Shown: positions 3,028 through 62,445 of the stretch, piece by piece
Position numbering within the stretch: the first letter of the stretch is position 1
Layout: the number at the start of each line of letters is the position of its first letter
Source: Mycolicibacterium lutetiense
Lineage (GTDB): Bacteria; Actinomycetota; Actinomycetes; Mycobacteriales; Mycobacteriaceae
Length of the DNA stretch: 64,000 bases
NCBI RefSeq assembly: GCF_017876775.1
Contig: NZ_JAGIOP010000001.1
Span: 310,001-374,000, forward strand
Direction: 5' to 3'
Translations under genes and position numbers: made by a program
The notes under the pieces: generated by a model
What the model was told of the DNA's origin: nothing
What the model saw: only the letters and a program-made list of their open reading frames with translations
Databases searched by the model: none

Positions 3028-4485
3028 CTACAGCTGCGCCCAGATTGTCTTGGTCTTCAGATAGGCGTCGATGCCCTCGTATCCGAATTCCTTGCCGACG
3101 CCTGACTGCTTGTAGCCGCCGAACGGCACGTTGTGGTCGAATGTCAACTGGCAGTTCAGCCCCACCATGCCGGCCTGCAGGCGCTTGCCCAGGCTGTGCG
3201 CACGGGCCAGGTTCGAGGTCCAGACGGTGGCGGCCAGGCCGTAGCTCGTGTCGTTGGCCATTGCGATGGCTTCATCGTCGTCGTCGAACGGCAGAATGGT
3301 GGCGACCGGGCCGAAGATCTCTTCCTTGTACAGGCGGCTGGTGGCCGGGTCGACGTTGGTGACCACAGTGGGCTTGACGAAGTAGCCCTTGCGGTCCAAT
3401 CGATAACCACCGGAAACGATTTCGGCACCGTCTCGCTTGCCCTGATCGATGTAGCCCAGCACGCGGTCGAGCTGCTTCTGACTGACCAGTGGGCTGATCA
3501 TGGCGCCCTCGTCCTTGGGGCCGCCCAGCACCAGGTTGTCGCCGATCATCGCGATGCCCTGCACCACGCGTTCATACACGCTGCGCTGCACAAAGATTCG
3601 TGATCCGCACACGCAGCCCTGCCCGGAGTGCACAAAGATGCCCATCGAGGCCATCATGATCGCCATGTCGAGGTCGGCATCGTCGTAGATCAGTACCGGG
3701 GACTTACCGCCCAGCTCCAGGGTCACCTTCTTCAGGTTGTCCGCCGAGTCCCGCATGATCTGCTTGCCGACCTCGGTCGAGCCGGTGAAAGCGACCTTCT
3801 CCACGTCGGGGTGCGCGGTGATCGCGGCACCCGCGGTGGCGCCGTAGCCGATCACGAAGTTTGCCACGCCGTCTGGCACGCCGGCCTCACCGATCAGCCG
3901 TTCGAGCAGCACGGCTGACAGCGGGGTCTCTTCGGCGGGCTTGACGACGAGGGAGCAGCCGGCGGCCAGAGCCGGGGCGATCTTGGCGCAGGCGTTGAAC
4001 AGTGGGCCGTTCCACGGGTAGATCAGGCCTACCACGCCGTACGGCTCCTTGGTGGTGTAGGCGTGCAGGTTGGAGTAGTTGCTGTTGACCCCGCCCTCCA
4101 TCTGCACCTGGTAGCTGCTGCCGTTGAGCTTGGTACACCAGCCCGCGTAGTAGCGGAAGAACTCCGCGCAGGTGGAGACGATCATCTCGGCCTGCATCGG
4201 GGGCATCCCGGCGTCCAGCGACTCCAGTTCGGCGAATTCCTTGGCGTGCTCGTCGATCAGATCGCCCAACTTCCACAGCACCTTGGCGCGCTGGCGGGCC
4301 GGGATGTCAGTCCAAACCCCGGACTGGTACGCGGCCTTCGCGGCGGCGACGGCCGCGTCGACCGCGGCGACCCCGCAGTCGCGGAACTCGGTGATCTGCT
4401 CCTCGGTCGCGGGGTCGATGACCGGAATGGTCTCGCCCGTGCCGGGTCGGTTGCGGAGCTCTTCCAAAACCGTCTGCAGTGCCAT
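3028..4485 (-). CDS. NAD(P)-dependent aldehyde dehydrogenase
   Basis: This is a full-length 485-residue ALDH-superfamily enzyme that oxidises an aldehyde to its acid. It has cofactor residues in KPAE (182-185) and FTGSTEVG (233-240), the general base Glu257 in LELGG, and the nucleophile Cys291 in GQGCVCGSR. The C-terminal oligomerisation strand is intact. ATG 4485 is the natural start. It is monocistronic and convergent with the ESX-like pair. The substrate is unknown. Confidence 0.9.
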   Translation of the reverse strand: MALQTVLEELRNRPGTGETIPVIDPATEEQITEFRDCGVAAVDAAVAAAKAAYQSGVWTDIPARQRAKVLWKLGDLIDEHAKEFAELESLDAGMPPMQAEMIVSTCAEFFRYYAGWCTKLNGSSYQVQMEGGVNSNYSNLHAYTTKEPYGVVGLIYPWNGPLFNACAKIAPALAAGCSLVVKPAEETPLSAVLLERLIGEAGVPDGVANFVIGYGATAGAAITAHPDVEKVAFTGSTEVGKQIMRDSADNLKKVTLELGGKSPVLIYDDADLDMAIMMASMGIFVHSGQGCVCGSRIFVQRSVYERVVQGIAMIGDNLVLGGPKDEGAMISPLVSQKQLDRVLGYIDQGKRDGAEIVSGGYRLDRKGYFVKPTVVTNVDPATSRLYKEEIFGPVATILPFDDDDEAIAMANDTSYGLAATVWTSNLARAHSLGKRLQAGMVGLNCQLTFDHNVPFGGYKQSGVGKEFGYEGIDAYLKTKTIWAQL

Positions 4486-16411: not shown

Positions 16412-16477
16412 CCCGCGAGCAGACGCAAAATCGCACTTTTCAAGGCGAAACAGTGCGAGTTTGTGTCTGCTCGCGGG
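16412..16477. repeat. palindromic repeat, copy 1 (GCGAGCAGAC family)
   Basis: Two 25-base arms (16412-16436 and 16453-16477) pair at 23 of 25 positions around a 16-base loop. The outer part, GCGAGCAGACGCAAA, is shared with copies at 59005-59064 and 61061. The copy lies 19 bases beyond the stop of the ECF sigma gene, where it could end or protect the transcript. Confidence 0.85.
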
Positions 16478-16495
16478 GAAGTTCGCGGAAGAAAC

Positions 16496-59004: not shown

Positions 59005-59064
59005 GCGAGCAGACGCAAAACTGCCCAAAACTAGGGGATTTAGGGCAGTTTTGCGTCTGCTCGC
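59005..59064. repeat. palindromic repeat, copy 2 (GCGAGCAGAC family)
   Basis: Perfect 22-base arms (59005-59026 and 59043-59064) flank a 16-base loop. The hairpin starts nine bases beyond the stop of the acyl-CoA synthetase gene and would end its transcript with a very stable stem. Confidence 0.9.
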
Positions 59065-59072
59065 CGAGAGAT

Positions 59073-60950: not shown

Positions 60951-61060
60951 ACCGGCACCGTATCGTGTCCGGCTGGTCGAAATCGGCGATTGTCGCTGGT
61001 CGGTTGCCTGTCCTCGACGGGTGGTCGCTTGCGCGCGGTCATCGGTCCGTCACCTTCCCG

Positions 61061-61114
61061 GCGAGCAGACACAAACCTGCCCGTTTTCGCGGGAGAAGGG
61101 ACAGTTTTGTGTCT
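61061..61114. repeat. palindromic repeat, copy 3, interrupted by the IS110 element
   Basis: The left arm (61061-61082) equals that of the other copies. The loop is 16 bases, and the right arm stops after GTGTCT at 61114. Its missing end, GCTCGCCGGG, reappears at 62431-62440 beyond the insertion element, six bases from the kdpE stop. Confidence 0.85.
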
Positions 61115-61126
61115 CAGTGTCAGTCT

Positions 61127-61310
61127 GGCAATTGCCGCGTTGCGGTGGTTGGGTCTGGATCATCTGGTGTCTGGCTCATTTTGTGTCTGCCGCCCCTTTG
61201 GTGGGTTGGCGTTGAGCAGTAGTGCCGGCATCAGATGTGAAGGACCGGACGGCGTGACTTGATAGGAGCGTGGCATCGCCCCCGACTGAGAAGTGTCCGC
61301 CGACCGGCCC
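61127..61310 (+). ncRNA. putative bridge RNA of the IS110 element
   Basis: The left end folds as a 5' hairpin (CCGC-GTT-GCGG, 61135-61145) followed by two guide loops. Loop 1 has an 11-bp stem (61161-61171 with 61227-61237) and contains TTTTGTGTCTGC (61179-61190), equal to the left target, and GAGCAG (61214-61219), the complement of CTGCTC. Loop 2 has a stem of nine pairs in ten (61245-61254 with 61298-61307). It contains CTTGATAGGAGC (61258-61269), matching the element's right end, and ACTGAG (61285-61290), the complement of CTCAGT at the left junction. Order and content match the bridge RNA described for IS621. The ends are approximate. Confidence 0.75.
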
Positions 61311-61352
61311 AACCTCAACACACCCTCTTCATGACTGAAGGAGGCAACCATC

Positions 61353-62417
61353 ATGGTTGTTGTTGGAGCCGATGTACACAAGTCCACCCACACCTTTGTC
61401 GCGGTCGATGAGGTCGGGTGCAAGCTCGGCGAGAAGACCGTCAAGGCCACCACTGATGGGCATCGCAAGGCCATCATGTGGGCCCGCGAGCAGTTCGGTG
61501 TCGAGTTGATCTGGGGCATCGAGGACTGCCGCAACATGTCGGCACGGCTGGAGCGTGACCTGCTCGGTGCGGGGCAGAAGGTGGTGCGGGTACCCACCAA
61601 ACTGATGGCCGCCACCCGCAAGTCCGCGCGCGCTCGAGGCAAGTCCGATCCGATCGATGCGCTTGCGGTGTCGCGGGCAGTGCTGCGCGAACCTGATCTG
61701 CCGGTCGCTTCGCACGACGAAGTGTCGCGGGAGTTCAAGTTGTTGACTGATCGTCGTGATGTTCTTGTGGGACAACGGACCTCGGCGATCAACCGGGTGT
61801 TGTGGCATGTTCATGACCTCGATCCCGAGTGGGCCGCCGCGTTGGGCTCACTGACTGCTCTCAAGCATCAGAAGGCCCTGATGGTGTGGCTGGCCGAGCG
61901 GCCCGGTGTGGTCGCTGAAATCGCCCGCGCTGAGGTGGGCGACATCATCCGGCTCACCAGTGAGATCAACACCTTGACCAACCGCTTGGCGGCCAGCATC
62001 GGCCAGGTCGCACCGACGCTGCTGGCGATTCCTGGCTGCGCGGAGCTCTCGGCGGCCAAGATCGTCGGCGAGGTCGCCGGCATCGGCCGGTTCACAAGTG
62101 AGGCAGCGTTTGCCTGCCATACCGGGGTTGCGCCCATCCCGGCGTGGTCTGGGGCCAGTGCCGGGCAGATGCGGTTAAGCCGGGCCGGCAACCGTCAACT
62201 CAACGCCGCCATCCACCGCATCGCCCTGACCCAGATTCGGATGACCGGCAGCCTCGGGCAGATCTACTTCCAAAAACTGATCGAGACCGGGAAAACCAAA
62301 CGCGCGGCGCTGCGCTGCGTCAAACGCCGAATCGCTCGCCGCGTCTACCAAGCCCTACGCCGCGACGCCCACGACCACCAAAACCCAGTCAAGCCGCCAC
62401 AATCAGTGGCGGCTTGA
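61353..62417 (+). CDS. IS110-family DEDD transposase (recombinase)
   Basis: This 354-residue protein has an N-terminal RuvC-like DEDD domain (VVGADVHKSTHTFVAVD, GIEDCRN, KSDPIDALAVSRA), a coiled-coil middle and the C-terminal Transposase_20 domain. The C-terminal domain contains IPGCAELSAAKIVGEV and the Ser-bearing WSGASAGQMRLSRAGNRQLN region. It catalyses RNA-guided excision and insertion. AAGGAGG lies ten bases before ATG 61353. The gene is intact, so the element may be active. Confidence 0.93.
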   Translation: MVVVGADVHKSTHTFVAVDEVGCKLGEKTVKATTDGHRKAIMWAREQFGVELIWGIEDCRNMSARLERDLLGAGQKVVRVPTKLMAATRKSARARGKSDPIDALAVSRAVLREPDLPVASHDEVSREFKLLTDRRDVLVGQRTSAINRVLWHVHDLDPEWAAALGSLTALKHQKALMVWLAERPGVVAEIARAEVGDIIRLTSEINTLTNRLAASIGQVAPTLLAIPGCAELSAAKIVGEVAGIGRFTSEAAFACHTGVAPIPAWSGASAGQMRLSRAGNRQLNAAIHRIALTQIRMTGSLGQIYFQKLIETGKTKRAALRCVKRRIARRVYQALRRDAHDHQNPVKPPQSVAA

Positions 62418-62445
62418 CATAGGAGCTATTGCTCGCCGGGAAAAG

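Follow-up and report, generated by a model that had tools for sequence, protein, structure and literature searches.

Insertion site and extent of the element

The window, that is, the entire 64,000-nucleotide stretch of Mycolicibacterium lutetiense contig NZ_JAGIOP010000001.1 (positions 310,001 to 374,000) analyzed here, contains a complete IS110-group element between genes for a KdpE-like response regulator and an acyl-CoA ligase of the propionate/acetate type, where KdpE-like denotes the best NCBIfam match of the regulator, which is below the cut-off of that model. Both neighboring genes lie on the minus strand, so the insertion site is downstream of the regulator gene. The features of the element and its flanks are collected in Table 1. 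When the flanks TTTTGTGTC and TGCTCGCC are rejoined they are the exact complement of GGCGAGCAGACACAAA at 61060-61075 (hairpin arm GGCGAGCAGACACAAA/TTTGTGTCTGCTCGCC), and the joined flank matches 12 further places in the genome, two of which are half-hairpins beside other copies of the element. The closest relative having the locus, L098, lacks the hairpin there and offers no orthologous empty site for the window copy; hairpins of the same genome were therefore used as empty sites instead. Perfect 10-base arms are found at four such uninterrupted hairpins, and because these read GTTTTGTGTCTGCTCG, without an extra CTAT, the element is delimited as in Table 1, with no target duplication. A reading in which the CTAT or AAAC following TAGGAG derives from the target, giving a right guide of 9 bases, is ruled out by the empty sites. 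Two further uninterrupted hairpins of the target repeat family are present in the window, at 16412-16489 and 59005-59069 (GCGAGCAGACGCAAAA...).

Table 1. Features of the IS110-group element, its putative bridge RNA and its target. Positions refer to the window unless a locus is named.
Feature	Position	Strand	Basis or remark
Left part of target hairpin	61060..61113	.	Dispersed palindrome; ends TTTTGTGTC = left target + first core base
Complete IS110-group element	61114..62429	+	1316 bp, TCAGTG...TAGGAGCTAT, without target duplication
-10-like box CAGTCT	61121..61126	+	17 nt from TTGACA once the ends join in a circle
5' hairpin of predicted bridge RNA (GCCGC/GCGGT)	61134..61146	+	100% of cells paired, 19 sequences
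Predicted target-binding loop with closing stem	61161..61237	+	Stem 1: CATCTGGTGTC 61161-61171 / GGCATCAGATG 61227-61237, 11 bp including two G.U
Left target guide (LTG) TTTTGTGTCTGC	61179..61190	+	Matches empty target; slot co-varies with left flanks, 64 insertions
Right target guide (RTG) GAGCAG	61214..61219	+	Complement of CTGCTC; slot co-varies with right flanks, 57 insertions
Handshake-like guide TAG	61220..61222	+	Complementary to CTA 62426-62428; presumed role as in IS621
Predicted donor-binding loop with closing stem	61245..61307	+	Stem 2: CCGGACGGCG 61245-61254 / CGCCGACCGG 61298-61307, 9 of 10 bp
Left donor guide (LDG) CTTGATAGGAGC	61258..61269	+	Near copy of CTTGACATAGGAGC 62413-62426, two-base gap; nearly invariant in family
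Right donor guide (RDG) ACTGAG	61285..61290	+	Pairs with left-junction CTCAGT, its complement; invariant in 19 sequences
IS110 recombinase, 354 aa, intact	61353..62417	+	Pfam, NCBIfam, IS621 structure, invariant residues
TTGACA, -35-like box in right end	62414..62419	+	Presumed role
Right end TAGGAG+CTAT	62420..62429	+	Sisters: TAGGAG+AAAC, 2 nt before start codon
Right target TGCTCGCC, remainder of hairpin arm	62430..62437	.	Uninterrupted hairpins
Interrupted-copy pieces	L231:313-473 + 3115-3201; L039:295-886 + 3527-4258		

The recombinase contains the Pfam domains DEDD_Tnp_IS110 and Transposase_20 and scores 174 bits against a cut-off of 140 with NCBIfam NF033542, 'RNA-guided transposase'. 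Solved relatives recognized by sequence are IS621 (8wt6, E 1.4e-9) and ISCro4 (9t56, E 1.8e-8). Candidate catalytic residues D7, E57, D99, D102 and S266 are invariant in 10 aligned proteins; the last four align with the matching IS621 residues, numbered after PMC11208158 with a presumed offset of 2, and D7 is assigned by motif only because the IS621 alignment begins after it. Protein identity to the window recombinase is 72% for L041, 66% for L044 and 59% for L081.

Four copies are present in the genome: the window copy, L038, L039, and one split over L231/L037. The three complete ORFs are identical in protein, the further copy being split, and two whole elements share 1327 bp of identical DNA. 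All four have such a hairpin at the left end; the hairpin sequences end in TTTTGTGTC, TTTTCTGTC, TTTTGTGCC and TTTTATGTC. One 2640-bp IS21-like element, with IstB and integrase-core domains, is found in two of the copies in opposite orientation, where it interrupts the putative bridge-RNA region of one (window-equivalent 61269-61274) and the ORF of the other (61698-61705). A search of the genome for the target predicted from the RNA alone, TTTTGTGTCTGCTC, gives 13 exact sites and 17 with one mismatch, and none for the reversed pattern; the matches are often both arms of one hairpin, and some are the remaining arm beside a copy of the element.

A putative bridge RNA at the left end

A preliminary description of this DNA had read, by eye, a bridge RNA with two stems and four guides in the left end of the IS110 element. 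Re-reading of the sequence finds both stems and the LTG, RTG, LDG and RDG exactly where they had been placed (Table 1); the element itself extends beyond the limits assumed at that time. The bridge-RNA reading is supported by covariation of guides and flanks, by conserved stems, and by the relationship of the recombinase to that of IS621. The candidate guides of the donor loop are complementary to the junction of the joined right and left ends and are nearly invariant in the family. Among 19 left ends, base 9 (A) is invariant and base 13 (T) is at least 90% conserved, and the CAGTCT and TTGACA boxes may together constitute a promoter at the junction of a circular form. Between the 20 bases of left flank that end at the core T (61095-61114) and the region 61121-61300 there is a common run of 10 bases; among 5000 random 20-mers taken from the window, 9 do as well.

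Relatives of the element

A DNA search gave matches, some of them short, in 73 of 198 genomes of the genus, and a protein-alignment scan of GTDB genomes gave 479 confirmed loci, of which the best 80 were retained; hosts among these 80 include Mycobacterium, Mycolicibacterium, Pseudonocardia, Gordonia, Williamsia, Tsukamurella, Nakamurella, Knoellia, and others. From the genome and genus searches 60 regions were taken, leaving out shorter and weaker DNA matches, and the 80 GTDB loci contributed 67 to the survey of ends and 66 to that of guides (L151 was left out, being judged the same locus as L040). Where both ends are recognized they are mostly alike, with TCAGTG at the left and TTGACATAGGAG plus four bases at the right. 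The search strings were TTGACATAGGAG for right ends and CAGTG plus flanking letters for left ends, which makes them invariant in the counts by construction.

Guides were sought in 127 loci using text patterns as loop anchors that are blind to any match of guide and flank. An anchor is recognizable in 73; the 54 without one include many distant relatives and also true members with variant loops (L051, L059, L166, L184-L189). Removal of L079, which is too short, and of eight duplicates, defined by the last 12 left-flank bases being equal to those of another entry, left 64 distinct insertions, 57 of them with a right end; the dropped duplicates L165 and L182 are from other hosts and may be separate insertions. 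Williamsia sp. 1138 (L184-L189) has at least three copies, recognized from three left ends and three right ends at the edges of contigs. They differ in the target loop, have the right end TAGGAG-CAACTT and left flanks like GATGATGGGGCC, and possibly represent a further target class.

Full-length relatives with 71.7% DNA identity are carried by Mycobacterium intracellulare plasmids (records NZ_CP015268.1 and NZ_CP015279.1), and 43 plasmid records have some match. None of 15 pattern matches in viral contigs is a relative, and the left end has no match in phage records.

Covariation of guides with flanking targets

Each left guide was scored over 8 nucleotides against its own left flank in the best of three registers, with the shuffled pairings given equal freedom. 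The 64 insertions, which have 42 different left-guide slots, score on average 7.14 of 8, compared to a shuffled mean of 4.40 and maximum of 5.02, none of 5000 shuffles being as high. The individual scores are 8 in 30 insertions, 7 in 23, 6 in six, 5 in one, 4 in three and 3 in one; 59 of 64 therefore score at least 6, and the five that score 3 to 5 (L048, L069, L072, L157, and L160) are counted against the reading. Covariation is found within the class having AAAC ends, described below as the promoter class (n = 44; 7.11 vs 5.23 shuffled), and for other end types (n = 13; 7.38 vs 3.87). In the strictest test, limited to the three variable bases of TANNNT in the 38 of 44 eligible insertions, the score is 2.82 of 3 vs 1.57 shuffled (maximum 1.97). 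For the target half of the right guide (n = 57) it is 4.37 of 5 vs 3.02 (maximum 3.49), again with none of 5000 shuffles as high.

The 3' extension of the right guide matches the last four bases of the element with a score of 3.72 of 4 vs 3.21 shuffled (maximum 3.44), a statistic that rests on few end types and on related elements; of the 57 extensions, 43 are exact, 10 have one G.T, and four are otherwise. The single elements L074, L153, L175, and L194 have unusual left guides, which the equally unusual flanks match almost completely.

The preliminary description had proposed covariation of the loop-1 guides with flanking targets as a check, and this is borne out on both the left (n = 64) and the right (n = 57). 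It had also named unchanged loops 1 at unrelated targets as grounds for rejection. Thirteen left-guide slots occur at more than one insertion, comprising 35 insertions; 33 of these match their flanks at 6 to 8 of 8 positions, and two, L048 (5) and L160 (3), do not. Overall, the compared sequences indicate that loop-1 guides have been rewritten many times over evolution, with the target changing along with them.

Conservation of the predicted structure

The energy fold of the window RNA taken by itself does not stand out (z -1.57; 15 of 200 shuffled sequences fold equally well), and the case for a putative bridge RNA rests on comparison rather than on folding energy. An Rfam covariance-model search with E up to 5 gave no match in the RNA region; its two matches are both inside the ORF and both below gathering scores. 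The structure was evaluated by pair counts on 19 aligned left ends, obtained from 62 left ends plus the window by a redundancy filter that retained 23 plus the window, and by dropping L038, L091, L092, L095, and L179 by hand. In this alignment 94.8% of cells pair in the named structure vs 26-46% in slid versions. Stem 1 pairs in 99.5% of cells and contains two pairs in which both sides have changed; stem 2 pairs in 84.7%, with mismatched pairs in many relatives. Two-sided changes number 14 cells vs 4.8 in shuffles that ignore kinship. Of five structure measures, two are not above shuffles: how many pairs carry a two-sided change (4) and how many pair types occur (22). These two measures, the weak folding energy and the stem-2 mismatches are counted against the bridge-RNA reading.

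Cores, handshake pairing and register

With cores defined as in IS621 (positions 8-9), the window target is TTTTGTGT-CT-GCTC and the donor TAGGAGCTA-TT-CAGT, so the core is CT in the target and TT in the donor rather than CT in both. The CT core of IS621 shows high conservation, yet recombination also took place with TT, GT, and AT (PMC11208158). GAGCAG pairs with the target CTGCTC, and its extension TAG pairs with the donor CTA. The extension is placed like the handshake guide of IS621, a segment that binds donor bases once strands have been exchanged (PMC11208158). Guide and extension together form 9 bp at the right junction, one of them G.T. Donors of the promoter class read TAGGAGAAA-CT-CAGT, the right-guide extension in this class is TTT, and its target position 9 is unconstrained, with C in 14, T in 13, G in 13, and A in 4 of 44 insertions.

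Comparison of L044, L061, and L062 with empty sites shows that neither the left-junction T nor the right-junction C is derived from the target, which places the apparent exchange point between the two bases of the core. In IS621 the top-strand cut follows the second core base (PMC11208158), and at promoter-class junctions, for example L061 compared to L121, the apparent exchange is one base 5' of that cut; repair of a short heteroduplex is one possibility, in which we place little trust. Guide and target align without shift in all 12 elements with CTAT or CAAT ends, whereas guides of the AAAC class are shifted by 1 in 24, by 2 in 18, and by 0 in two (n = 44). Since shifts are confined to AAAC-class guides, flexible left spacing is a property of the promoter class.

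Sister elements at putative promoters and start codons

In 44 of the 57 insertions with a right end, the element ends in TAGGAG-AAAC and is followed by two bases and then ATG (36) or GTG (8), as in L042, L061, L062, and L163. A TANNNT -10 box is found 3-6 bases before the element in 40 of these 44, at a distance of 4 (23 insertions), 5 (15), 6 (1), or 3 (1); the other four have none at 2-7 bases. The -10 box is matched by the left guide and the start codon by the right guide, and the element end supplies the Shine-Dalgarno-like TAGGAG before the start codon.

Orthologous empty sites are contiguous at the junction for L061 (9 loci), L062 (8), and L044 (3), and insertion is exact for these three sister copies. 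Of the two empty-site loci of L043, L122 carries one extra base at the junction and L148 carries one three bases before it, which is counted against the best explanation; for L042 no spanning empty site was found among 30 loci compared. The nearest empty site, L121, is 96% identical to L061 and reads TTAGCGTGACG|GTATG. Together, the empty sites and the box distances put the start codon mostly 6-7 bases from TANNNT in the native arrangement, a spacing that corresponds to the layout of leaderless genes and suggests that the targeted genes are leaderless. Of the primary start sites in M. tuberculosis, 73% have a TANNNT centered 7-12 bp upstream, and roughly one gene in four is leaderless there (PMC3898074). 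TAGCGT-N6/7-ATG occurs at 35 genomic sites vs 10 for N12/13, with 45 and 44 in reversed-pattern controls, and these counts weakly favor it as a genomic signal.

In 39 of 44 insertions the downstream frame stays open for 50 codons or more, or as far as the sequence reaches, vs 42 of 88 off-frames; those of L050, L060, L157, L183, and L194 are closed. The downstream proteins, named for 13 hand-picked insertions of the 44 and in several cases truncated at the sequence end, include Pgi, dCTP deaminase, RNase PH-type, exonuclease/phosphatase-type, MsrB, and carboxylesterase proteins. Related elements have independent-looking insertions before pgi and dcd: L067 (Mycobacterium) and L163 (Pseudonocardiales), and L054 and L216.

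Discussion

The left end of the element very probably encodes a bridge RNA whose loop 1 pairs with the target and whose loop 2 pairs with the joined ends, the recombinase exchanging strands at the core. In the circular form, TTGACA of the right end would lie 17 nt from the [C/G]ANNNT box of the left end, like the junction promoter of IS621, and the RNA would start a few bases after the -10-like box and run to about 61310. Bound by the recombinase, it would guide it through pairing of loop 1 with the target (left guide TTTTGTGTCT, right guide CTGCTC) and of loop 2 with the element's own joined ends, with exchange at the cores CT (target) and TT (donor). The element would thereby insert into one arm of a dispersed intergenic hairpin, here that downstream of the KdpE-like gene.

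This arrangement resembles IS621 in the order of 5' hairpin, target loop, and donor loop at the left end, in a left guide that would pair with the bottom strand and a right guide with the top strand, in a right-end -35 box and left-end -10 box joined in the circle, and in the DEDD and serine residues and the handshake guide position (PMC11208160, PMC11208158), as well as in having a REP palindrome as target (PMC1525189). It differs in that the window recombinase is only distantly similar (E 1.4e-9), in the unequal donor and target cores, in three rather than two handshake-like bases, in an apparent exchange point inside the core, and in the flexible left spacing of the sisters. ISEc21 likewise has an upstream non-coding region and the same guide order, and natural re-targeting is described for ISEc21 and IS1111-family seekRNAs (PMC11187229); they belong to another lineage, and the text of that report available to us describes no promoter or start-codon target.

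REP palindromes are targeted by IS elements of five families (PMC1525189), and a recombinase that reads its target by protein-DNA contacts, the guide resemblance being due to chance or to copied-in target sequence, might also account for insertion into hairpins. We regard this as very improbable given the covariation of guides and flanks, including the unusual guides of L153, L074, and L175 that match unusual flanks, and given that L041, L044, and L081 insert at hairpins or start codons in accord with their own loop sequences. Membership in the IS1111 group, in which the transposase gene is followed by a seekRNA, would be compatible with the shared general recombinase family, but the long non-coding region lies upstream, the left guide precedes the right guide, and only 12 bp of element follow the stop codon, which leaves this alternative next to no credibility. 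A different question is whether the window copy is a bridge-RNA element in form that is dead or unexpressed, which would be compatible with the best explanation for the family. The interruption of two of the four genome copies by the IS21-like element points in that direction; the window copy, however, has an intact ORF and all guides, and the identity of three proteins and of two elements over their DNA is as expected after recent movement or copying, so we consider a dead window copy unlikely.

For the sister elements we consider it probable, from the guides and junctions compared, that an IS110 lineage in mycobacteria and other actinobacteria has bridge RNAs directed against leaderless promoters, with the window element as a branch aimed at intergenic hairpins. 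The left guide would read TANNNT and the right guide NNATG/GTG, and the target could have one or two additional bases between left guide and core. The left end of the element would then be located approximately at the transcription start, the host promoter making bridge RNA and recombinase, and the right end would provide the displaced gene with a Shine-Dalgarno sequence (TAGGAG-AAAC-NN-ATG), converting leaderless to leadered translation, so that genes such as pgi, dcd, and rph would apparently be spared by the insertion. IS900 of M. avium subsp. paratuberculosis, also of the IS110 family, inserts at start codons (PMC8141618), and its motif CATGNNNNNNTCTCCTT, in our reading of the other strand, consists of a Shine-Dalgarno sequence, six bases, and CATG; IS900 splits the Shine-Dalgarno sequence from the start codon, whereas the sisters here come between the -10 box and that codon.

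Bridge RNAs, natural re-targeting, REP targets, and start-codon targets of IS900 are already described (PMC11208160, PMC11187229, PMC1525189, PMC8141618). In a literature search covering mostly non-subscription papers, without preprints, judged by title and start of abstract and, among the papers listed since 2024, by title, no report of guides directed against leaderless promoters and no paper joining IS900 with a bridge RNA was found.

The family presents dozens of natural re-targeting events on one bridge-RNA scaffold, from which guide rules can be read in the sequence: the register, the handshake pairing, the core mismatch, and the flexible left spacing. Unequal cores reveal the exchange point at each junction, which equal CT cores hide. 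If the reading of the promoter class is true, a mobile element picks, by RNA, the promoter from which it will live while the host gene stays translatable, and the observation that IS900 inserts at start codons would gain a mechanism.
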